Source: Burkholderiaceae bacterium (GTDB lineage Bacteria; Pseudomonadota; Gammaproteobacteria; Burkholderiales; Burkholderiaceae_C). From it: a DNA stretch of 50,968 bases. Positions 39,976 to 50,709 of this stretch are shown here, piece after piece. The notes beneath the pieces are model-generated. The model did no database searches. It saw only the letters and a list, made by a program, of their open reading frames with translations, and was not told the DNA's origin. A program made the translations under genes and the position numbers. Where the stretch lies: assembly GCA_016790515.1 (NCBI GenBank), contig JAEUOY010000057.1, forward strand, positions 1-50,968, in the 5' to 3' direction. The first letter of the stretch is position 1. Every line of letters starts with the position of its first letter.

Positions 39976-41154
39976 TCAGAGCCGTTCGACGATCGTCACG
40001 TTGGCCAGGCCGCCGCCCTCGCACATCGTCTGCAGGCCGTAGCGCTTGCCGCGCGCGCCCAGCGCATGGACCAGCGTGGTCATCAGCTTGGCGCCGCTGC
40101 CGCCCAACGGGTGGCCGAGCGCGATCGCGCCGCCGTTGACGTTGAGCCGGTCCGGGTCGGCGCCCAGCACCTGCAGCCAGGCCAGCGGCACCGGCGCGAA
40201 GGCCTCGTTGACCTCGTACAGGTCGATGTCCTCGATGCGCATGCCGGCCTTCTGCAGCGCCCGCTGGGTTGCCGGGACCGGGGTCTCGAGCATCACCACC
40301 GGGTCGCCGCCGATCACCGACATGTGGTGCACGCGGGCCAGTGGCTTGACGCCCAGCGTCTTCAGGCCGCGCTCGTTGACGACCATCAGGCCGGCCGCGC
40401 CGTCGCAGATCTGGCTGGCCGACGCCGCGGTGCAGACGCCGCCTTCCTGGATCAGCTTGACGCCCTTGATGCCGTCGAGCGTGACGTCGAAGCGGATGCC
40501 TTCGTCGGCGGTGTGCAGCTCGCCGGTCTCGGTGCCGTCGGCCATGCGCACCGCCACCGGCACGATCTCGCCCTTGAACGCGCCACTCTTCGTGGCGGCG
40601 ATCGCGTTCCGGTGGCTGCGGTAGGCGAACTCGTCGAGCCGGTCGCGCGGCATGCTGTACTTCCTGGCGATCATCTCGGCGCCGGTGAACTGGCTGAACT
40701 GCACGCCGGGATAGCGCCGGGCCATGTTCGGGCTGACATAGAAGCCGTGGCCATGCTTGAACGGCAGCGAGGCCGGCAGCCCCATCGGCACGCGCGACAT
40801 GCTCTCGACGCCGGCGGCGATCACGATGTCCATCGTGCCCGACATCACCGCCTGCGCGGCGAAATGCAGCGCCTGCTGCGACGAGCCGCACTGCCGGTCG
40901 ACCGAGGTGCCGGGCACCGATTCGGGCAGCTTCGACGCCAGGATCGCGTTGCGCGCGATGTTGGTCGCCTGCTCGCCGGCCTGGCCGACGCAGCCCATGA
41001 TCACGTCGTCGACCAGCGCCGGGTCGCAGCCGCTGCGCTCGACCAGCGCGTCCAGCACCTGGGCCGCCAGGTCGGCCGGGTGCCAGCCCGAGATCTTGCC
41101 GTTGCGGCGCCCGCCGGCGGTGCGTGCGGCGGCCACGATGAAGGCTTCAGCCAT
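39976..41154 (-). CDS. acetyl-CoA acetyltransferase (thiolase)
   Basis: This is a 392-residue thiolase. The nucleophilic Cys lies in DRQCGSSQQALHFAA, the His in NVNGGAIALGHPLG and the second Cys in TMCEGGGLANVTIV. Its CEGGG variant and the motif MSRVPMGLPASLPFKHGHGF place it with degradative-type acetyl-CoA acetyltransferases. ATG 41154 gives the standard length, though the frame is open upstream. It cleaves 3-ketoacyl-CoA, or condenses acetyl-CoA, and should end a beta-oxidation spiral with its neighbours. It is the first gene of its operon, 116 bases after the CHAT-like gene. Confidence 0.92.
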   Translation of the reverse strand: MAEAFIVAAARTAGGRRNGKISGWHPADLAAQVLDALVERSGCDPALVDDVIMGCVGQAGEQATNIARNAILASKLPESVPGTSVDRQCGSSQQALHFAAQAVMSGTMDIVIAAGVESMSRVPMGLPASLPFKHGHGFYVSPNMARRYPGVQFSQFTGAEMIARKYSMPRDRLDEFAYRSHRNAIAATKSGAFKGEIVPVAVRMADGTETGELHTADEGIRFDVTLDGIKGVKLIQEGGVCTAASASQICDGAAGLMVVNERGLKTLGVKPLARVHHMSVIGGDPVVMLETPVPATQRALQKAGMRIEDIDLYEVNEAFAPVPLAWLQVLGADPDRLNVNGGAIALGHPLGGSGAKLMTTLVHALGARGKRYGLQTMCEGGGLANVTIVERL

Positions 41155-41270
41155 GGGGGATCCTGTGTTCGTTGAAGGGATGACCCGGCATTGTTCGCCG
41201 CGCGGCGGCGGGCCGACGTCGTCGGAACCGATGAATTTTCTCGTCGTCGACGGCACCGCGCCGCCGCGAC

Positions 41271-44200
41271 TCAGCGCGCCGATCGCCGATGGCCCGTCGG
41301 CAGCAGCGTCAGCCCCGGGTTGCCCCAGCACTGGAAGGCAGCCCAGCTCGTGCCCTTCGGGTCGAGCTTCCAGGCCTCGCCGCGCGCGAACAACACACAG
41401 TCGCCGAAGCTTCGCCCCTGGGCCAGCGCTTCGTAGAACGCCACCGTGAAGCCCGCGGCCTCGGCCGGTCCGACCGGCCAGCCGGGGACGACCACCGCAC
41501 GCACACCGGCGTGCAGCAGATCCTGGGCAAAGGCAGCGGCGAAGCTCGGCCAGTCCTGCAGCGGGCGGCCGTCGTCGTGCGCCGTCGGGCTGCAGAACAC
41601 CAGTTGCGGCAGCGCGCGCAGCTGGCGGATGTCGTTCACGCCCAGCACCAGGTCAGGGCCGAACCGAAAGCCCGCGAACAGGCCAGGGCCGGAGCCCGGC
41701 CAGGCGATCGGCGCGGCCAGGTGCAGCAGGTGCAGCGGCTCGCCATGCAGCCGGACCATCAGTTCGGTGGCGGGGCGGTTGACGACCGCCTCGGGCTTCG
41801 AACCTGCCCGTTGCAGGACCCGCTCCAGCGCCCGTGCGATGTCCTTGGCGTAGGGCGGCTGCGCGGTCTTCGCGGCCGGGTCGGCGGCGAAGATGCCGGC
41901 CTGCAGGCCGGCGTCGATCGGGCTGGCCGGCGTGCGCGTGGGCGCGGCGGACTGGCGCACCAGGCCCATCAGCGCCGCCAGCGGCGGCACCCTGCCGGGC
42001 TGCGAGCCGCGGTCCAGCAGCTCCCAGGGATAGCGCGCGGCGGCGGCGTCGAGCACCAGCGCCAGACGGTCGACCATCAGCAGGGGGCTCAGCAGGCCCG
42101 CCGGCAGCAGCAGCTCGGTCAAGGTGCGCCGCAACGCCGGGTCGGCGTCGGCGCGGCCGTCGGTCGATGCCAGCAGGTTGTCGACCAATGAGCGGCTTTC
42201 GGCGCCCACCGTGTGGCTGCCGCGGCCGCCAGCGGTCAGCCTGTAGTCGAAGGCGCCCCGGTCGTCGACCCGCAGCAGCAGCCGGTGCCACCAGTCGCCG
42301 CGCGGGATCTCCTTCGGTGGGCGACGAACTTCGATCGCCGAAACGAGTTCCACGGCTGCAGCGGATTCCGACGCCTTGGCCCAGCGAAGCAGAGCCGCTT
42401 GGGCCAGCGAGGCGCGCTCGCGAACGGCCTCGATGATCTCGATGCGCTCGTAGCGGGCCATGCCGGGATTGGAGAGCAGGTGCACGTTGGCCTGCAGCGT
42501 CGCCTCGACGATCGCGATCGCGCTGTCGCCGACACTGACGCCGCCCTCGCCCGAGCCCACCAGCAGGCAGCTGGCGCGCAACGCCGGCGTCCGGTGGCCC
42601 GCCTCGGACTGGTGCTCGACCGCTCGACCGAGCAGGGCCGCACGAAGCGACTCGGACAGCAGCGACGGCGACAGCTCACCGATCGTGCCGAGGCCAACGG
42701 CCAGCACCTCCGGCGCCGCGCTGCCTTCGCCGCTGCCGCGCACCAGCGCCGATGTTCCGACCGGGCCAGGATAGAGGCCGAGCGCAAGCCGCCGCGACAG
42801 TGCACCCTGCACCAGCTCGTCGAGCTGTCTCTCGACGCCGCAGATGCCGTCACCGTCGTAGTGCCCGACCAGCAGCGGCGCACCGGCCTCGCGGATGTCG
42901 CCGTGCACGACGCGCAGATCCAGCGTTTCGGCCGGCGCAGCGCCGCGCTCGGGCAGTTGCTCGACGGCCCGGACGATGCGCGATGCCAGTTCGTCCGAAT
43001 CATCGAACTCGATCACCGGCATCTCGAGCTTCAGCTGTTCGCGAAAGGCCGCCATGCCCATGCGATCGTCGCTGGCCTTGCCACGCGTCCTCAGGACTTC
43101 GCGGCGCGACAGTGCCATCAGGCAGGGCAGGCTGCGCTCGCGGGCATGCTCGAATGCCAGTTGCAGAAGGGGTTTGTGCGCCGGATTCGACGCGTCACCG
43201 GGCACGAAGCCGCTGCGCCAACCCACCAGCCCGACGAAGAGCTCGCTGTCGTCGACGGCCGCCAGCGTGTCGCGCACCGACTGGAACCGATCGGGCGTCC
43301 TGACCGCATGGCCGGCAGCCCGCAGCGCCTGCGCCACGGCGTCCAAATGGAGGCTGAGCTCCTCTACAACCGCGACGACCACCACGCGCCGCCCGGCGCC
43401 GGGCCAGGGCTGCCTGGCGCGTTGCAGCCGCAGGCGCAGCCCGTCTACCTCCACCAGCCGCAGGCGCACGCCCGAGCTGCCGTCGCTCAGTGCATCGGCC
43501 GCGACGACGGCGCCGACAACACCGCTGGCATCGACCACCGGCGCGCCGAGCAGGGCCTCGTCGAACGGAGTGTCGCCGAGCCCGGCGGCTGTCGGCATCA
43601 GCGCCTGTCGACGCGCGCCGGCACGCGGCTGCAGCACGACGTCGAGCCAGCGCACGACGCCGTCGCCGCCGATCGCTGCGACTTTCGCCGCCACGTCCTC
43701 CTGTGGCAGCATGTTGCCTAGCGGTGGCGACGGCCACACCGGCACATCGTCGGCGACCGGCTTCAGCACTACCAGCTCAGCGACGCCGTCGGCTTCCTCA
43801 TCGTCGGTCGACGAACGCGTCAGCTCGAACCGGCGCCCGCTACGCGGATCGACGACGCGATCGACGCCCGCGAACGCTGCCGCCACCGTCAACCCGAAGG
43901 AATTCTCGACAATGAAGCCGACGCGTGTCGCACCCTCGCCCTGCAGCGGCCGCAGTTGCAGGCAGTTGCCGCGCCAGCGATCGTCGATCCGGGCGGCATC
44001 TGCATCGGGGGGAGACTGAGCGGCCAGCGCTGCACTGCCGAGACGGTAGCGGTCCCCCGCCATCGTCGTGAGGGTGAGTTCCGACGGCTCGCCGTCCAGG
44101 TGCACGACCGCCAGCGGAGCCGCCTCGACGGTGCGCTCCTGCGTCACGCCTCCCGCCTGCCATGCCAGCCCGACCAGCAGCGGGTCGGTCGCCGGTGCCT

Positions 44201-44924
44201 CGAAGCTGGCGATGCCGCCGTCGGGTTCGCGGAACTGCAGGCCGCCGGCGACCCGCACGACACCGATGCTGCGACGCGCCCCCCCAGCCGGCAGCGCGTT
44301 CGCCAGCAGCTCCAGCGGCAGGTCGGCGCGCAGCGGCTCGGCCAGCGCGCGCCGCATGCCCAGCCGCAGCGATGCTGCGAGCAGCAGCGTCTGCGCGGCA
44401 CGCGTGCGGCGCACCCGATCGTCCAGCCGGTCGGCCGCTCGCATCGCCCAGCGCGCCACGTCGAGCGCCGCGTCGCCACCCTGGGCCAGCGTGCGCAGTG
44501 CCGGTTCGAGCATGGCCGCGGCCGCGCCGTCGAGCCGCGGCCGCCCGGACCGGGCACCGGCCAGCGCCACCATGTTCAAGGCTTCCTCGAGCCGGATCGC
44601 GGCGGCGGCCTCGACATGGGCCTGGCGGGTGATCCGGGCCGCCCGCCGCCGCCGCCCCGGGTCGGCCACCAGGCGCTGGCGCAACAGCGGCAGCACGCTG
44701 CCGGCGAGCTGGAAGCCGGTGCTGCCGCGCCATTCGACGACCGCACTGAACCAGAGGTCGGATTCGACGCCGGGATCGGCCTCGGGCAGCAGGGCCTGGC
44801 GCAGGCGGCGCAGCAACCCGGCGTCGACGCGCACCGCCAGGCTGGCCAGCTCGGCCAGCCCGGCGGCCAGCGGCGACTCCTGGTCGAGTGCCGCCAGCCG
44901 CGCCGCGGCGCTCAGGCTTTCCAT
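41271..44924 (-). CDS. pseudo-trypsin / DUF4062 / pseudo-CHAT protein
   Basis: This is a 1217-residue multidomain protein. Residues 1-310 are helical then beta-rich, with no family recognised. Residues about 320-500 fold like a trypsin protease (VGFIVENSFGLT, ALLGAPVVDASGVVGAVVAA), but the His, Asp and Ser positions are replaced. Residues 512-660 are DUF4062 (VVVVAVVEELSLHLDAVAQA, LFVGLVGWRSGFVPG). Residues 668-850 hold a conserved CHAT-companion region (VVHGDIREAGAPLLVGHYDG, GLYPGPVGTSALV). Residues 930-1210 are a CHAT domain ending GWPVGPAEAAGFTVAFYEAL. In LHLAAPIAW a Pro replaces the catalytic His, and LVFCSPTAHD lacks the Cys of LNCCH. The start overlaps the vWA-like gene by 13 bases. Confidence 0.75.
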   Translation of the reverse strand: MESLSAAARLAALDQESPLAAGLAELASLAVRVDAGLLRRLRQALLPEADPGVESDLWFSAVVEWRGSTGFQLAGSVLPLLRQRLVADPGRRRRAARITRQAHVEAAAAIRLEEALNMVALAGARSGRPRLDGAAAAMLEPALRTLAQGGDAALDVARWAMRAADRLDDRVRRTRAAQTLLLAASLRLGMRRALAEPLRADLPLELLANALPAGGARRSIGVVRVAGGLQFREPDGGIASFEAPATDPLLVGLAWQAGGVTQERTVEAAPLAVVHLDGEPSELTLTTMAGDRYRLGSAALAAQSPPDADAARIDDRWRGNCLQLRPLQGEGATRVGFIVENSFGLTVAAAFAGVDRVVDPRSGRRFELTRSSTDDEEADGVAELVVLKPVADDVPVWPSPPLGNMLPQEDVAAKVAAIGGDGVVRWLDVVLQPRAGARRQALMPTAAGLGDTPFDEALLGAPVVDASGVVGAVVAADALSDGSSGVRLRLVEVDGLRLRLQRARQPWPGAGRRVVVVAVVEELSLHLDAVAQALRAAGHAVRTPDRFQSVRDTLAAVDDSELFVGLVGWRSGFVPGDASNPAHKPLLQLAFEHARERSLPCLMALSRREVLRTRGKASDDRMGMAAFREQLKLEMPVIEFDDSDELASRIVRAVEQLPERGAAPAETLDLRVVHGDIREAGAPLLVGHYDGDGICGVERQLDELVQGALSRRLALGLYPGPVGTSALVRGSGEGSAAPEVLAVGLGTIGELSPSLLSESLRAALLGRAVEHQSEAGHRTPALRASCLLVGSGEGGVSVGDSAIAIVEATLQANVHLLSNPGMARYERIEIIEAVRERASLAQAALLRWAKASESAAAVELVSAIEVRRPPKEIPRGDWWHRLLLRVDDRGAFDYRLTAGGRGSHTVGAESRSLVDNLLASTDGRADADPALRRTLTELLLPAGLLSPLLMVDRLALVLDAAAARYPWELLDRGSQPGRVPPLAALMGLVRQSAAPTRTPASPIDAGLQAGIFAADPAAKTAQPPYAKDIARALERVLQRAGSKPEAVVNRPATELMVRLHGEPLHLLHLAAPIAWPGSGPGLFAGFRFGPDLVLGVNDIRQLRALPQLVFCSPTAHDDGRPLQDWPSFAAAFAQDLLHAGVRAVVVPGWPVGPAEAAGFTVAFYEALAQGRSFGDCVLFARGEAWKLDPKGTSWAAFQCWGNPGLTLLPTGHRRSAR

Positions 44925-45910
44925 CGCCGGTCCGTGGTCTCGCGCAGCGCGCGCACGACCTGGCGCGCGGTCGTGCGCTCGCCCCAGTGCATCAGGCCGA
45001 GTTCGCGGGTCAGCGCCGGCGGCCAGCGCGCCGGCGCGAACGGCACCCAGGCGATCGCCCGGCACCCGGCGCCGCGCACCTGCTCGGCGAAGCCCTGCCA
45101 CTCCGCGCTGTCGGCGGCGGCATCGTCGTCGATCGGCGCGCCGATGCCGAGGTCGCTGACGATGACGACCGGCGTTCCCGGCGGCGGTGGCCGCCAGGCA
45201 CTGCGGCCACCGCGCCCCGGCATGCGCACGCCGCGCGCGGGGCAATGGCGAAACTCCTGCACCGCCAGGCGGCCGGGCCCGAGCAGCTTCTGAACATCGT
45301 CGAGCAGCCGCGCCACGTCATGCGCGAACGGCACCATCGCCGGCGCACGGTCGACCAGCACCTGCGCACCGTGGGCCAGGGTGCGCACGGTGCGCCGAGG
45401 CAGTCGCTCGATGCGCCGGCCGCGCGACAGCAGCGCGATCGTGCGCTCGACGTCGAGCTCGGCGCCTTCCTGCCAACCGGCCAGCGCGGCGCCCAGGATG
45501 GCGCGCGACTGGCGCTCGGCGATCAGCGGCGGGGGTGGCAGGCTGTCGGCATGCCCGTCGGCGGCGCGCCAGGCCGTTGCCGATTCGTCGGCCGCGAACG
45601 CCATCACGCCCTGGGCGATGCGTTCGAGCGTGGCCACGCGCTGGCGGGGCAGCGGCTGCGGGGAAGACGGCGGCGGGGGCGGTGGCGGAATGCCGGCATC
45701 GGTGTCCGGCGGCCGCGGCACGATCCGCTCGGGCTCGACCCAGGGGCCGATGCGCGGCGGCGGCGCCACGCTCGCCGGCACCGGTTCGACACCGAGCAGC
45801 GCGAGAACCTGGCTGCGGGTCTGGGCATCGCGCGGACCGAGGCGCTGCAGCGCCAGCAGCGCATCGGCCAGCGAGATCGCCTTGCCGCGCGGCGGTTCAG
45901 GCGCGGCCAT
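44912..45910 (-). CDS. vWA-like protein of a MoxR system
   Basis: This 332-residue protein has a helical N terminus (ISLADALLALQRLG), a proline-rich linker with a run of Pro at 75-81, and a Rossmann-like vWA domain from about residue 170. The metal-site position reads VLVDRAPAM (187-192), so the DxSxS MIDAS is degenerate. VVIVSDLGIG (248-257) is the later Asp loop. It resembles the SAV_2336-type partner proteins of MoxR ATPases. It overlaps the MoxR gene by 14 bases and the pseudo-CHAT gene by 13, which implies translational coupling. It probably links the AAA+ motor to the large protein. Confidence 0.65.
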   Translation of the reverse strand: MAAPEPPRGKAISLADALLALQRLGPRDAQTRSQVLALLGVEPVPASVAPPPRIGPWVEPERIVPRPPDTDAGIPPPPPPPSSPQPLPRQRVATLERIAQGVMAFAADESATAWRAADGHADSLPPPPLIAERQSRAILGAALAGWQEGAELDVERTIALLSRGRRIERLPRRTVRTLAHGAQVLVDRAPAMVPFAHDVARLLDDVQKLLGPGRLAVQEFRHCPARGVRMPGRGGRSAWRPPPPGTPVVIVSDLGIGAPIDDDAAADSAEWQGFAEQVRGAGCRAIAWVPFAPARWPPALTRELGLMHWGERTTARQVVRALRETTDRRWKA

Positions 45911-46874
45911 CGCCCGCCCCGGGAGCGCGCGGCCGGTCGCTCTTCAGCAGCACGCTGCCGACGACGTCAGGCCAGTGCGGCGATGTCTGGTCGATGCCCA
46001 GTTGTTCGCAGACCCGCACCGCGTCGAGAAACTCGGCGGTCGACGGCTTGCGCCGCTGCAGCGCCGGCGCCTGGCCGCGCAGGCGCATCACCGCGGCGGC
46101 CAGCTGCTGGTGGCGCGTTCGATCACCCTTCGGGAAATGGCGCGCCGCGAGCTGTTCGAACCAGGCCGCGTCGGGCTCGTCGAGCGCCAGCGTGACACAG
46201 CGGCGCAGGAAGGCCGGCGGGAGTTCGCGTTCGGTGTTGGTGGTCAGCACCAGCAGCACGTCGCGACGCGCGACGATGCGCTCGTTGGTTTCGCGCACCG
46301 TGAACTCGCGCGTGTCGAACGGCTCGAGCAGGTCGTTGGGCACGTCCGGGTCGGCCTTGTCGATCTCGTCGACCAGCACCACCGCGCTGTCGCCGCCGGC
46401 CGCTGCGGCCGGGTCGCGGGCACGCGCCGACGCGGGGTCGATCGGCTCGAGGCCGCGCTGCGCCGCGGTTTCCGGATCGAAGCCCCACCACACGGCACCC
46501 GGCTCGACGTAATGCGGCATCGGCTGCAGCGTCTCACCGGGGGTGGTGGCATGGTTCAGCCGGCGCAGCGCGTCGAAGCTCCACAGCAGGTCGGTGGCCT
46601 GGCTGCGCGAGGTCACGGTGTGGCGGTAATACGGCCAGCCCAGCGCGCTGGCCACCGCCCGGGCCAGCAGCGTCTTGCCCGAGCCGGGCTCGCCGGCCAC
46701 CAGCAACGGACGGCGCGTGGCGAGCGCGACATTGACGGCCAGTTGCACCGAAGGCGTGAAGACGTAGACCTGCGGCTTGCCGCCTTCACGCCAGCGCCAG
46801 GCCAGGTTGGCGGTCTTCGGCACCCGGGTGCCGCCGAGCTTGCCGAGATCGAAGTATTTCGGGTCGTAGTCCAT
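45897..46874 (-). CDS. MoxR-family AAA+ ATPase
   Basis: This is a 325-residue MoxR ATPase. Walker A is GEPGSGKT (61-68), Walker B AVVLVDEIDKADPDVPNDLL (164-183), and the sensor region VLTTNTERELPPAFLRRC follows. A 30-residue insert (residues about 118-160, GAVWWGFDPETAAQRGLEPI) lies between them. ATG 46874 follows GGAG at six bases; an upstream Met is unlikely. MoxR proteins act as chaperones that remodel vWA-containing complexes. It follows the TIR gene by 22 bases and overlaps the vWA-like gene. Confidence 0.9.
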   Translation of the reverse strand: MDYDPKYFDLGKLGGTRVPKTANLAWRWREGGKPQVYVFTPSVQLAVNVALATRRPLLVAGEPGSGKTLLARAVASALGWPYYRHTVTSRSQATDLLWSFDALRRLNHATTPGETLQPMPHYVEPGAVWWGFDPETAAQRGLEPIDPASARARDPAAAAGGDSAVVLVDEIDKADPDVPNDLLEPFDTREFTVRETNERIVARRDVLLVLTTNTERELPPAFLRRCVTLALDEPDAAWFEQLAARHFPKGDRTRHQQLAAAVMRLRGQAPALQRRKPSTAEFLDAVRVCEQLGIDQTSPHWPDVVGSVLLKSDRPRAPGAGDGRA

Positions 46875-46896
46875 GCCCTGCTCCGTTGCGTGACGA

Positions 46897-48171
46897 TCAT
46901 CGACGCAGCGCGCGGCGCGCACTGCCGTAGTCCTTGTAGGCCTCGTACTCGTCCTTCACCGGCACCGCCGGGCGCAGCGCGACGGCGGGCAGTGCATCGT
47001 CGCGCTCGGGCAGTTGCTCGCCGGTCCACAGCAGGAACACGACCTTCGGCAGGCGCTGGCGCAAGGTGCGCAGCGTCGCGGCGTCGGGCAGTGGCAGCGG
47101 CACGAACAGGAACGGGTCGCCGGCGGCCAGCGCAGCGACGATCTGCGCATCCGACCGGCCGCGGAATTCCTCCTCCTCATGCTCGCGCAGCCAGGCACAG
47201 ACCTGGCTCTCGTAGTACGCGGCATCGGCACGGTGCACGCCGCCTTCGATGCTGGCCACGCGCAGGTCGAAGCGGAACGGGTGGGCCTTGTCGACCAGCC
47301 GCTCGGCGGTGTAATCGATCAGATGGCCGCCATTGACGCAGGCAATGCCGCCCTGGCCGCCGGCCCACAGCTCGTGCGCGACGGCTGCCAGCTGGCCGCT
47401 GATCACCGGGTCCAGCCAGTGCGGGGCCAGCCAGCGCAGCACGTTCTTCAGCGCGTCGGACGACAGCGACAGGCTCTTGAGCTCGTTGATCAGCTCGACG
47501 AGCTTGGCGTAGTCGCCGAAATGCCCGCCCAGCATGCGGGCCGCGAGGCCTTCGACCGGCAGGTTGCGGTCGCCCGGCCACCAGGGCAGCGGCGGCGCGT
47601 GCAGCCGCGTGGCCAGCTGCCGGATCAGCGCCGGCTTCACGTCCTGCAGGATGTTGGCCAGCTTGGACGCCAGTTCCTCGAAGGGTGTGCTCGCCCCGAT
47701 CGTGTGCGGGCCGTGCTGGCGCAGCACGCTTGCGATGGCCTGCGCGTCGCCGGTGGGCACGCGCTGCAGCAGCGACAGCTGGGCCGGACCGAAGCCCTGT
47801 GCGTCCAGGGCCTCCGGCTCGACGCCGAGCAGCACGTGGAAGACCTTGAACGATGGGTCCAGCGAGCGCCGCCAGCCCAGGATGTGCGTTTCCTTGCGCA
47901 CCCAATCCGGTCGCGACAGCGCGGCCGGCGTCAGCAGGATCAGGCCGGCCTGTGCGTAGGCCATCATCGCGTGCAACTGGATCGGCCATTCCTCGCCGGG
48001 CTTCAGGCAGTCGCGGTCGACCAGCACTTCGTAGCCCGGATGGCCATCACCCGACGCAGCCAGCGCGGCGCTGACGGCGTCGGTCAGCACGGCGTCCTTC
48101 GAGCTGTGGCTGAGGAAGATGCGCGGGCGCGGCGCCGCGGCGCTGGCCGCAGCGCGACGGCGGGTCGGCAT
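46897..48171 (-). CDS. TIR-domain protein with long helical C-terminal part
   Basis: This is a 424-residue protein. The TIR domain (residues 17-150) has RIFLSHSSKDAVLTDAV, YEVLVDRDCLKPGEEW and LTPAALSRPDWVRKE, with the NADase glutamate at 94 intact. The middle part (about 160-300) resembles effector-associated helical domains (TPFEELASKLANILQD, YAKLVELINELKSLSLSSDA). The last 120 residues (VFLLWTGEQLPERDDAL) are of unknown fold. It is the first gene of the four-gene operon and the only member with a complete predicted active site, so it is the likely effector. It diverges from the SNF2 helicase gene. Confidence 0.82.
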   Translation of the reverse strand: MPTRRRAAASAAAPRPRIFLSHSSKDAVLTDAVSAALAASGDGHPGYEVLVDRDCLKPGEEWPIQLHAMMAYAQAGLILLTPAALSRPDWVRKETHILGWRRSLDPSFKVFHVLLGVEPEALDAQGFGPAQLSLLQRVPTGDAQAIASVLRQHGPHTIGASTPFEELASKLANILQDVKPALIRQLATRLHAPPLPWWPGDRNLPVEGLAARMLGGHFGDYAKLVELINELKSLSLSSDALKNVLRWLAPHWLDPVISGQLAAVAHELWAGGQGGIACVNGGHLIDYTAERLVDKAHPFRFDLRVASIEGGVHRADAAYYESQVCAWLREHEEEEFRGRSDAQIVAALAAGDPFLFVPLPLPDAATLRTLRQRLPKVVFLLWTGEQLPERDDALPAVALRPAVPVKDEYEAYKDYGSARRALRR

Positions 48172-48363
48172 GGCCTCAGGCCGCGGCGCGTGCCGTCGTC
48201 ACGACGGATCGCGCCTCGCCTGCCCGTTGTCCCTTCCGCACTCCGTCCATGCCGCCCGCCTCGCTTCGGTGCGAAAGATCATATGTGCGCCACGCTGGCC
48301 GCCCCATCGGTGCCGGCGCACCGGCCGGGCGAGCCGGCGGCGACATGACGGCCCCGCCCGACA

Positions 48364-50709
48364 ATGCCGCCCATGCCGGACCCCGCCCCCGACGAGCGCC
48401 CGCGCGGCCCGCGGCTGCGGCTGCAGACGCTCGACCGCGGCGACGGGCTGCTCGGCCTGCGGCCCTGCGGGCCAGTGCGGCCGCGGTCGCGCTCGCCGCT
48501 GTTCGGCGCCCGCGGGCCGCAGGTCACGGTCGCGCGCTTGACCGATGCCGGCGCGGCCGACGTCGCCCGGCTGCACGCGCTGGGCCTGCAGCCGCTGCCG
48601 GCGGCCGCGCTGCAGTGGCGCGGCGGCGTCTCGCCGTTGCCCGACGAAGCGCTGTACAGCCTGGTGCGCGAAGCCGACTTCGGCGAGTTCTGCGAAACCG
48701 CCCTGCCCGCACTGCAGGCCGAGGGCTGGACCGTCGAGCTGGCGCCGGGCTTCGCCCACGCCGCCGAACCGGTGGCCGGCTGGCAGATCCGGCTGCAGCC
48801 GCTGACCCAGCCGCGCGGCATGGGTTCGTGGCTGCTGAGCCTGAAGATCGAGCTGGCGACCCGCCACGGCCCCGAGACGCTGGACCTGGTGCCGCTGCTG
48901 GCGCGGCTGATCGGCCACGACCGGCGCTGGACGAATGCCGAGGCGCTGGCGGCGATCCCCGACGACGAGCCGGTGCGCCTGCATGCGCCGGGCGGACGCC
49001 GCATCGACGCGCCGGCGGCGCCGCTGAAGGCGATCGTCGGCGCGATGATCGACCTGCTGACGCGGCCGCGGCGAAGGGCCGACGAGCCGCTGGCGATCTC
49101 GTCCTGGGACGCGCAGCGGCTGGCGCTGCTGCGCGCCGGCCTGAAGGACGCGATCGCCAGCCATCCCAGCGCCCGGCGAGACTGGGTGCTGCAGGGCGAG
49201 ACCGCGCCCGAGGGGCTGGCCGCGCCGCCTGCAGCCGTCGAGCCGCCCGCCGGCCTGGGCATCACGCTGCGGCCCTACCAGCGCGACGGCCTGGCCTGGC
49301 TGCAGCAGTTGCGCCGCCACGGCGCGGCCGGCATCCTGGCCGACGACATGGGGCTGGGCAAGACGGCACAGGCGCTGGCCCACCTGCTGGTCGAGCAGCA
49401 GGCCGGCCGGCTCGACCGGCCGGCGCTGGTGGTGGCGCCGGCCTCGCTGATCTTCAACTGGCAGGCTGAAAGCCAGCGCGTCGCGCCGGCGCTGAAGCTG
49501 CTGACGCTGCAGGGCCCGCGCCGCAGCGCCGCTTTCGCCCGCATCGCCCAGTCCGACCTGGTGCTGACCAGCTACCCGCTGCTGTGGCGCGATGCGATGG
49601 CGTTCGAGCGCCAGCCCTGGCACCTGGTGGTGCTGGACGAGGCGCAGATGGTCAAGAACGCCGGCAGCCGCACCGCCACCACGGCACGCCGGCTGAACGC
49701 CCGCCACCGCCTGAGCCTCACCGGCACGCCGATCGAGAACCATCTCGGCGAGCTGTGGGCGCAGTTCCACTTCCTGCTGCCTGGCTTCCTGGGCGATGCG
49801 CGCAGCTTCCAGCGCGACTGGCGCACGCCGATCGAGAAGAACGGCGAGACGCAGCGCGCGAAGCTGCTGGCGCAGCGGGTGCGGCCCTTCATCCTGCGCC
49901 GGCGCAAGGACCAGGTGGCCGCCGAGCTGCCGCCGCTGACCGAGCAGCTGCACCGCGTGGTGCTGGCCGGACGCCAGCGCGCGCTGTACGAGAGCGTGCG
50001 CCTGGCCGCCGACGAGCGGATGCGCCGGCTGCTGGCCGCGCAGCGTTTCGAAGGCTCGATGATCAGCGTGCTCGATGCGCTGCTGAAGCTGCGCCAGGTC
50101 TGCGACGACCCGCGGCTGCTCGACGATGCGCCGGCGGCGGGCCCGGCCGGCGACTCGAGCGCCAAGCTGGCCTGGTTGGCGCAGACGCTGCCGGTGCTGC
50201 TGGCCGAGGGCCGGCGGGTGCTGCTGTTCTCGCAGTTCACCCGCATGCTGGCGCTGGTGGCCGCCGAGCTCGACGCGCTGGGCCTGCCCTGGCTGCGGCT
50301 GACCGGCGACACGCCCGGCGCCGAGCGCGGCGCGGTGGTGGCGCGCTTCCAGCGCGGCGAAGCGCCGCTGTTCCTGGTCAGCCTGAAGGCCGGCGGCGTC
50401 GGCCTGAACCTGACCGCCGCCGACACGGTGATCCACCTCGACCCCTGGTGGAACCCGGCGGTCGAGCAGCAGGCCAGCGCCCGCGCCCACCGCATCGGCC
50501 AGCACAAGCCGGTGCTGGTCTACCGGCTGGTGGCCGCCGGCAGCATCGAGGAACGGCTGCTGGCGCTGCAGGCGCGCAAGGGCGCGCTGGCCGAAGTGGT
50601 GCTGGGGCCGGCCGGAGCGTCGGTCGATGCCGGGCTGCAGGTGGCCGACGTGCAGGCCTTGCTGGCGCCGCTGGACAGCGCGGATGGCGAATCGGAAGTC
50701 TTCGCCTGA
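48364..50709 (+). CDS. SNF2-family helicase/ATPase
   Basis: This is a 781-residue DEAD/DEAH-superfamily 2 protein. The first 300 residues are of unknown fold. The motor then begins with LRPYQRDGLAWLQQLRRHGA, Walker A ILADDMGLGKTAQALA, DEAQ-type Walker B (VVLDEAQMVKNAGS) and SLTGTPIENHLGELWAQFHF. The C-terminal lobe has LFSQFTRML, VSLKAGGVGLNLTAAD and RAHRIGQHKPVLVYRL. It is a chromatin-remodeller-like DNA translocase of the HepA/RapA-related type, with no nuclease or SWIM finger. The start could also be ATG 48373. It diverges from the TIR operon. Whether it belongs to the conflict system or is a housekeeping factor cannot be told. Confidence 0.9.
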   Translation: MPPMPDPAPDERPRGPRLRLQTLDRGDGLLGLRPCGPVRPRSRSPLFGARGPQVTVARLTDAGAADVARLHALGLQPLPAAALQWRGGVSPLPDEALYSLVREADFGEFCETALPALQAEGWTVELAPGFAHAAEPVAGWQIRLQPLTQPRGMGSWLLSLKIELATRHGPETLDLVPLLARLIGHDRRWTNAEALAAIPDDEPVRLHAPGGRRIDAPAAPLKAIVGAMIDLLTRPRRRADEPLAISSWDAQRLALLRAGLKDAIASHPSARRDWVLQGETAPEGLAAPPAAVEPPAGLGITLRPYQRDGLAWLQQLRRHGAAGILADDMGLGKTAQALAHLLVEQQAGRLDRPALVVAPASLIFNWQAESQRVAPALKLLTLQGPRRSAAFARIAQSDLVLTSYPLLWRDAMAFERQPWHLVVLDEAQMVKNAGSRTATTARRLNARHRLSLTGTPIENHLGELWAQFHFLLPGFLGDARSFQRDWRTPIEKNGETQRAKLLAQRVRPFILRRRKDQVAAELPPLTEQLHRVVLAGRQRALYESVRLAADERMRRLLAAQRFEGSMISVLDALLKLRQVCDDPRLLDDAPAAGPAGDSSAKLAWLAQTLPVLLAEGRRVLLFSQFTRMLALVAAELDALGLPWLRLTGDTPGAERGAVVARFQRGEAPLFLVSLKAGGVGLNLTAADTVIHLDPWWNPAVEQQASARAHRIGQHKPVLVYRLVAAGSIEERLLALQARKGALAEVVLGPAGASVDAGLQVADVQALLAPLDSADGESEVFA

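Follow-up and report, generated by a model that had tools for sequence, protein, structure and literature searches.

A four-gene chromosomal insert in a Burkholderiaceae bacterium with the layout of a predicted TIR-bearing MoxR-vWA ternary system

We analysed a 50,968-nucleotide stretch of contig JAEUOY010000057.1 (assembly GCA_016790515.1) from a Burkholderiaceae bacterium, referred to below as the window, in which four consecutive minus-strand genes encode a TIR protein, a MoxR-type ATPase, a vWA-like protein and a protein of 1217 residues. These genes form one 7.1-kb unit that is probably (we put the chance at about 0.6) a TIR-bearing MoxR-vWA ternary conflict system, in which the cargo of the 1217-residue protein would sense or bait, the MoxR and vWA components would switch, and the TIR domain would cleave NAD. 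The unit is more than a chance arrangement, because the gene set recurs beside MoxR genes elsewhere and is the sole content of an insert in the chromosome. Its features are as follows.

41235..48348, no strand: inserted unit with exactly four genes, 7.1 kb (homology to the empty sites of genomes G005, G007 and G013)
46897..48171, minus: TIR protein, 424 residues, candidate output enzyme (TIR_2, E 1.1e-7)
47695..48129, minus: TIR domain, residues ~15-159
46960..47427, minus: C-terminal domain, AAA+/STAND-like in appearance, without GK[ST], residues ~249-404
45897..46874, minus: MoxR-type AAA+ ATPase (AAA_5, E 2e-16; Walker A and Walker B)
44912..45910, minus: divergent vWA-like protein, 332 residues (homology to vWA genes of the family)
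41271..44924, minus: linker-plus-cargo protein, 1217 residues (open frame, ATG start)
44025..44924, minus: constant N-terminal module, residues ~1-300, by position equivalent to the published vWA-L (aligned with loci L032, L031, L033 and L027)
43425..43961, minus: possible trypsin-like region, weak, residues ~322-500 (hhalign P 0.0068, probability only 5.6%)
42945..43400, minus: DUF4062-like region, Ala in place of the conserved Glu, residues ~509-660 (BLASTP E 2e-11 to L030)
42360..42929, minus: macro-fold domain of the M17 N-terminal type, residues ~666-855
41319..42128, minus: CHAT domain, catalytic His lost and Cys position disturbed (CHAT, E 3.6e-16)

The insert and its genes

Alignment of the window flanks with three empty sites (G005, G007 and G013) gives homology up to position 41234 and again from 48349 (G005) to 48358 (G007), and the aligned ends of the thiolase and SNF2 genes lie 100-109 bp apart in these empty sites. 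Because homology stops at 41234 and resumes at about 48349, the insert holds exactly the TIR, MoxR, vWA-like and 1217-residue genes and nothing else of size. The comparison covered 12 flanks upstream of SNF2 genes, with three empty sites, three sites carrying other genes, four flanks lacking a thiolase match and two (G011 and G020) ending at a contig edge. About 3.4 kb of other genes lies between helicase and thiolase in G002, G006 and G008, and the site looks variable across congeners. By eye, the thiolase-SNF2 interval of three congeners (L194, L196 and L200) encodes a cyclase-like protein of more than 900 residues and a small lipoprotein-like protein. The GC content at third codon positions (GC3) is 0.87-0.90 for the four genes of the unit versus 0.95-0.97 for three neighbours (SNF2, thiolase and, by eye, an enoyl-CoA hydratase); the comparison leaves aside a fourth neighbour, for which a value of 0.807 had come from an out-of-frame stretch. 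Of 21 genus genomes, 17 have a match to the SNF2-helicase gene; in 14 of these, own genome included, the identity is >=65%. We considered the helicase as a fifth member and rejected it, since it is present in three genus genomes that lack the unit; its matches to DpdE and ZorD were put down to the shared helicase.

The preliminary description of this DNA, made from the sequence letters, had proposed a compact operon with two overlaps of 13-14 bases, and this layout is borne out. All four frames are open, the MoxR and vWA genes overlap by 14 bases (45897-45910), the vWA and 1217-residue genes overlap by 13 bases (44912-44924), and 22 bases separate the TIR stop from the MoxR ATG. A promoter-like site was not found in 41000-48500, and the window yielded neither a tRNA nor an Rfam match. 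Pfam matches above the cut-off within the unit are TIR_2, AAA_5 and CHAT; Pfam includes a VMAP-C model, and VMAP-C is not among the window matches at E up to 1.

Components and relatives of the unit

The catalytic glutamate of the TIR domain (Glu94) is retained and is present in all 10 TIR family members aligned. Apart from TIR, the 424-residue protein has no Pfam match above chance, and the PADLOC/NCBIfam model SAVED_TIR matches over the TIR part (E 9.7e-5) partially or below its cut-off. In the structure model the C-terminal fold looks AAA+/STAND-like. Assignment to iSTAND through PF19995 found no support in the window proteins or the relatives and none above the cut-off in distant genomes (0 of 40 relatives, where no control gave signal; 2 of 19 distant genomes, below the cut-off).

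Both ATPase motifs of the MoxR protein (Walker A, GEPGSGKT; Walker B, VVLVDEIDK) are intact, as they are in all 11 MoxR proteins compared, window included, so that the earlier statement that the TIR protein is alone in keeping its catalytic residue does not hold for the unit as a whole. Among the parts that could attack a cell, the TIR domain alone keeps its catalytic residue. The MadB ATPase model gives 78.8 bits against a cut-off of 475 and is below cut-off. The 332-residue protein has no Pfam match and is called vWA because it is homologous to the vWA genes of the family. VWA_CoxE matches relatives weakly and below the cut-off (L093, E 0.0019; L074, E 0.0052), and has no match in the four other separate-gene members and one fused member scanned. 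The DxSxS motif is intact in three of 12 aligned members (L093, L095 and L096); the window protein reads D-R-A-P-A at this position, both serines being replaced by alanine.

The first ~300 residues of the 1217-residue protein correspond to a module that is fused to vWA in a single protein in L031 and L033, and vWA and module share one frame in 16 of 20 wider loci fetched from vWA-profile matches. Because L031 and L033 carry these fusions, alignment identifies the large protein as the split-off half of the vWA component, made of a constant linker and a replaceable cargo. A stand-alone pseudo-protease, which we also considered, was rejected given that the first ~300 residues are this module. The preliminary reading of the protein as a sensor or scaffold rather than a protease is upheld in part: the CHAT His is lost, and the protein is very probably no protease on this sequence evidence, but it is a linker plus cargo and not a stand-alone pseudo-protease. 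Its DUF4062-like and macro-fold parts had not been named in that description.

The catalytic His of CHAT is absent from the window protein and kept in nine of nine relatives, and the alignment around the Cys is ambiguous. At the glutamate column of DUF4062 the window has Ala, and Glu is present in 11 of the 18 rows of an alignment built from 18 of 19 matches, in which L210, L215, L216 and L218 are wrong-strand translations and L220, L221 and L222 lack the Glu. Neither the His and Cys pair of an active CHAT domain nor the Glu of an active DUF4062 NADase is found in the window protein. The region of L030 that aligns with the DUF4062-like part matches PF13271, a model without a match in the window protein itself. 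The trypsin-like and DUF4062-like parts are read from sequence because the structure model of the large protein has a predicted local distance difference test (pLDDT) score below 50 at model residues 69-364. Sequence searches of the PDB returned nothing useful.

The large protein is matched in 12 of 60 near genomes by two kinds of protein, one sharing the N-terminal module and the other the macro-CHAT part. The N-terminal-module kind lies with TIR, MoxR and vWA genes (L031 in G015, L032 in G025, L033, and L027 at a contig end). L033 (G000:C13) is a second TIR-MoxR-vWA locus of the window's own genome, where a single protein comprises vWA, linker and a DUF7379 cargo. The macro-CHAT kind comprises nine proteins of ~1,800-2,100 residues (L020-L026, L028 and L029) with intact CHAT motifs, which by sequence are possibly stand-alone defence proteins; the one macro-CHAT relative scanned contains DUF7379, CHAT and TPR-S.

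Matches to the vWA-part profile, own genome included, were found in three of 21 genomes of the genus, six of 399 of the family, three of 300 of the order and 20 of 299 of the phylum; 8 to 11 candidates were scored per genome in the large genome searches, and these counts are lower bounds for other genomes. Profile A4 was built from the window, L027, L031, L032 and L033, which match it by construction. An FGE-sulfatase domain occurs in all seven scanned one-frame proteins that combine vWA and module, and the products of the genes 5' of them contain TIR, trypsin-like parts below the cut-off or very weak cyclase-like ones. At L074:4692-6767 and L076:4097-6301 the gene 5' of MoxR, read by eye, opens like an alpha/beta hydrolase (FVHG, FIHGLGGG) and not like TIR.

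A neighbourhood survey, as the preliminary description had suggested, was made by scanning named genomes with a MoxR alignment. Eighty loci were kept, of which 72 have MoxR without vWA or linker and eight have vWA and module genes beside MoxR, as separate genes in all eight. These come from a Methylococcaceae metagenome-assembled genome (MAG), a Pirellulaceae MAG, Streptomyces sp. GQFP, Candidatus Accumulibacter contiguus, Lentzea kentuckyensis, Methylibium sp. NZG (the L032 locus), a Rhodocyclaceae MAG and Streptomyces melanogenes. In the first six (L093-L098) the order is TIR-MoxR-vWA-linker, with a TIR gene 5' of MoxR and separate vWA and linker genes; the Rhodocyclaceae locus (L099) is cut by a contig edge, and S. 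melanogenes (L100) has its TIR gene 3' of the module gene. The four-gene set is found again in other proteobacteria, in a planctomycete and in actinomycetes, and the earlier suggestion of a conflict-type MoxR/vWA/TIR unit gains from this recurrence beyond the genus. Three stretches of viral contigs with MoxR included no relative, nor did 49 stretches from a first contig scan with the large protein.

The cargo varies by locus. In the eight named loci it comprises FGE (twice), NACHT with FGE, TIR and TPR with a below-cut-off NTPase, DUF7379, and TssB with TssC; no cargo domain was found for Lentzea at E up to 0.05, and S. melanogenes gave only weak matches. The second TIR with TPRs is in the Streptomyces sp. 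GQFP cargo (L095:10183-14820), and the NACHT NTPase with FGE is in that of the Pirellulaceae MAG (L094:10643-15988). The Methylibium sp. NZG protein (L032:9284-12079; L098 is this same locus) joins the linker to two type VI sheath proteins, TssB (VipA, E 1.6e-36) and TssC (VipB, E 1.4e-123); six neighbouring frames scanned included no type VI secretion gene and consist of UvrA, a VWA protein, an amidohydrolase, an FMN dehydrogenase and two frames without a match.

Class placement

By its sequence organization the unit is a MoxR-vWA ternary layout closest to the published TERNS3 class, which is already known from sequence; the cargo set (DUF4062-like, macro-fold and CHAT) and the exact insertion are new details of that described class. 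Burroughs et al. 2021 describe MoxR-vWA ternary systems in which a vWA-L-plus-cargo gene stands apart from the vWA gene and the 5' gene is often a TIR fused to TERNS3, a novel alpha+beta domain, TIR being the commonest partner (PMC8195603). The window shares with them the 5' gene that joins TIR to another domain, MoxR, and the division of vWA and vWA-L-plus-cargo between two genes, and L093-L098 have this arrangement too; the section on these systems, however, names no CHAT, macro or DUF4062 cargo (PMC8195603). More generally, the window has the intact MoxR, the variable cargo attached through a constant linker and the signalling enzyme on the third component that mark the ternary class.

With the systems of Kaur et al. 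2020 the window shares MoxR, vWA and a third component with TIR or peptidase, and also FGS and caspase-like cargo and, in its TIR protein, a predicted AAA+/STAND-like C-terminal fold; unlike them it has no PF19995 match (PMC7159879). Thiohalocapsa ternary systems diversified by a diversity-generating retroelement likewise combine MoxR, a vWA protein with a variable C-terminal part read as sensor and a third-component enzyme read as effector, but their lectin-type variable domain is retroelement-diversified and the window protein has no such domain (PMC10907252). Type IV Thoeris also has an operon that pairs TIR with a caspase-related fold; in the window, by contrast, CHAT looks inactive, having lost the His that a catalytically able caspase-like effector would need, MoxR and vWA are present, and a stand-alone protease effector is not indicated (PMC12847820). 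The DUF4062-like stretch is shared with Swarozyc and other DUF4062 TIR-like NADases, but the window has Ala for Glu and the stretch is embedded in a cargo protein (PMC13174449).

Proposed mechanism and competing explanations

We propose that the cargo would recognize, or be bound by, something of an invader, that vWA and linker would relay the signal to the MoxR motor, and that remodelling of the complex by MoxR would let the TIR-STAND-like protein assemble and cleave NAD. The outcome would be cell death by NAD loss or the production of an ADP-ribose-type signal. Since none of the cargo enzymes appears live, the output is likely to be TIR, and this favours the direction of Dore et al. 2024, in whose proposal the variable part senses and the third-component enzyme acts (PMC10907252), over that of Kaur et al. 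2020, in whose proposal the cargo is the effector (PMC7159879). Inactive cargo had been thought unusual in the preliminary description; it is instead the published rule for peptidase-like domains in the cargo position, where roughly 70% of those of caspase type and almost all of those of trypsin type are inactive (PMC7159879).

Several observations weigh against this reading. The kin systems are themselves only predicted conflict systems, known from sequence. The vWA identity of the 332-residue protein, as a divergent member, is weak, coming from relatives and weak matches. PF19995 has no match in the window proteins at E up to 1, near and distant third components show only a weak similarity in their C-terminal domains (hhalign E 0.011, probability 3.9%), and the domain behind the window TIR and TERNS3 are set apart by description only, as an AAA+/STAND-like fold in the model and a novel alpha+beta domain in the article (PMC8195603). 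Four genomes with the SNF2 gene (G003, G015, G016 and G018) have no thiolase match within the 7-8 kb flank, so that the empty sites speak for part of the genus. Finally, the macro fold could bind the TIR product, making the cargo a receiver.

This last point leads to the reverse direction, which is possible but clearly less probable, and in which TIR would sense and make a signal, the macro fold would bind the ADP-ribose-type product, and the cargo would respond, with the inactive CHAT part acting as a peptide binder or dominant-negative module. TIR and macro fold do share one operon. In Thoeris, the macro effectors of type II respond to His-ADP-ribose and type IV links a TIR with a caspase-like protease (PMC12847820); for inactive caspase domains, roles of this kind have been suggested by Kaur et al. 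(PMC7159879). The cargo, however, retains no live effector, and ligand binding by this M17-type macro fold is putative; moreover, the fetched loci of the nine macro-CHAT proteins contain no TIR gene by the profile of the window TIR family, which could miss distant TIRs.

A more tentative idea, unlikely in this specific form, concerns what the inactive cargo would do if the TIR domain is the output. The dead DUF4062 NADase and macro-CHAT protease copies might be integrated decoys that trap invader proteins able to bind or modify the live versions, upon which MoxR-vWA would fire a TIR whose fusion partner is a dead STAND-like domain; elsewhere in the family the decoy would be a DUF7379 hydrolase or a contractile sheath, and the whole could, by analogy, be likened to the integrated decoys of plant nucleotide-binding leucine-rich repeat (NLR) receptors. 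In keeping with this, the L033 DUF7379 cargo has lost its nucleophile (LGAGG, where seven of seven aligned stand-alone DUF7379 proteins have HSRGG), and the same genome encodes two further DUF4062 proteins, of which L219 shows the Glu and the other was read on the wrong strand. On the other side, L031 keeps the Ser, GHSTGG is intact in L099, and the own genome (82% complete) has no good live macro-CHAT protein, its weak CHAT match (E 3.5e-4) containing an internal stop.

It is still less probable, and in our view doubtful, that the unit is an acquired system in decay, its cargo losing function and the whole no longer working. Several active sites are lost in one protein, and the GC3 values given above are as expected for a newcomer; close orthologues of the cargo were not found in this analysis. 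Yet all four frames, including one of 1217 codons, are open with tight overlaps, the TIR and MoxR motifs are kept, and an inactivated cargo is reportedly frequent in classes that work (PMC7159879). A MoxR-vWA chaperone pair assembling a host complex with no conflict role, on the model of known pairs such as RavA-ViaA and NorQ-NorD, which serve in the assembly or loading of protein complexes, is highly improbable given the TIR partner, the variable cargo and the insertion at a variable site.

The two published proposals for these systems disagree about which end senses and which acts (PMC7159879, PMC10907252), and at the level of titles and abstracts the literature searched yielded no experimental test of a MoxR-vWA ternary system. 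In a compact four-gene member such as this one, where the TIR and ATPase motifs are kept and the cargo motifs are lost, a few point mutants could decide the direction. If, moreover, the TIR protein truly ends in a dead STAND-like domain, an NLR-like architecture would be added to the class.

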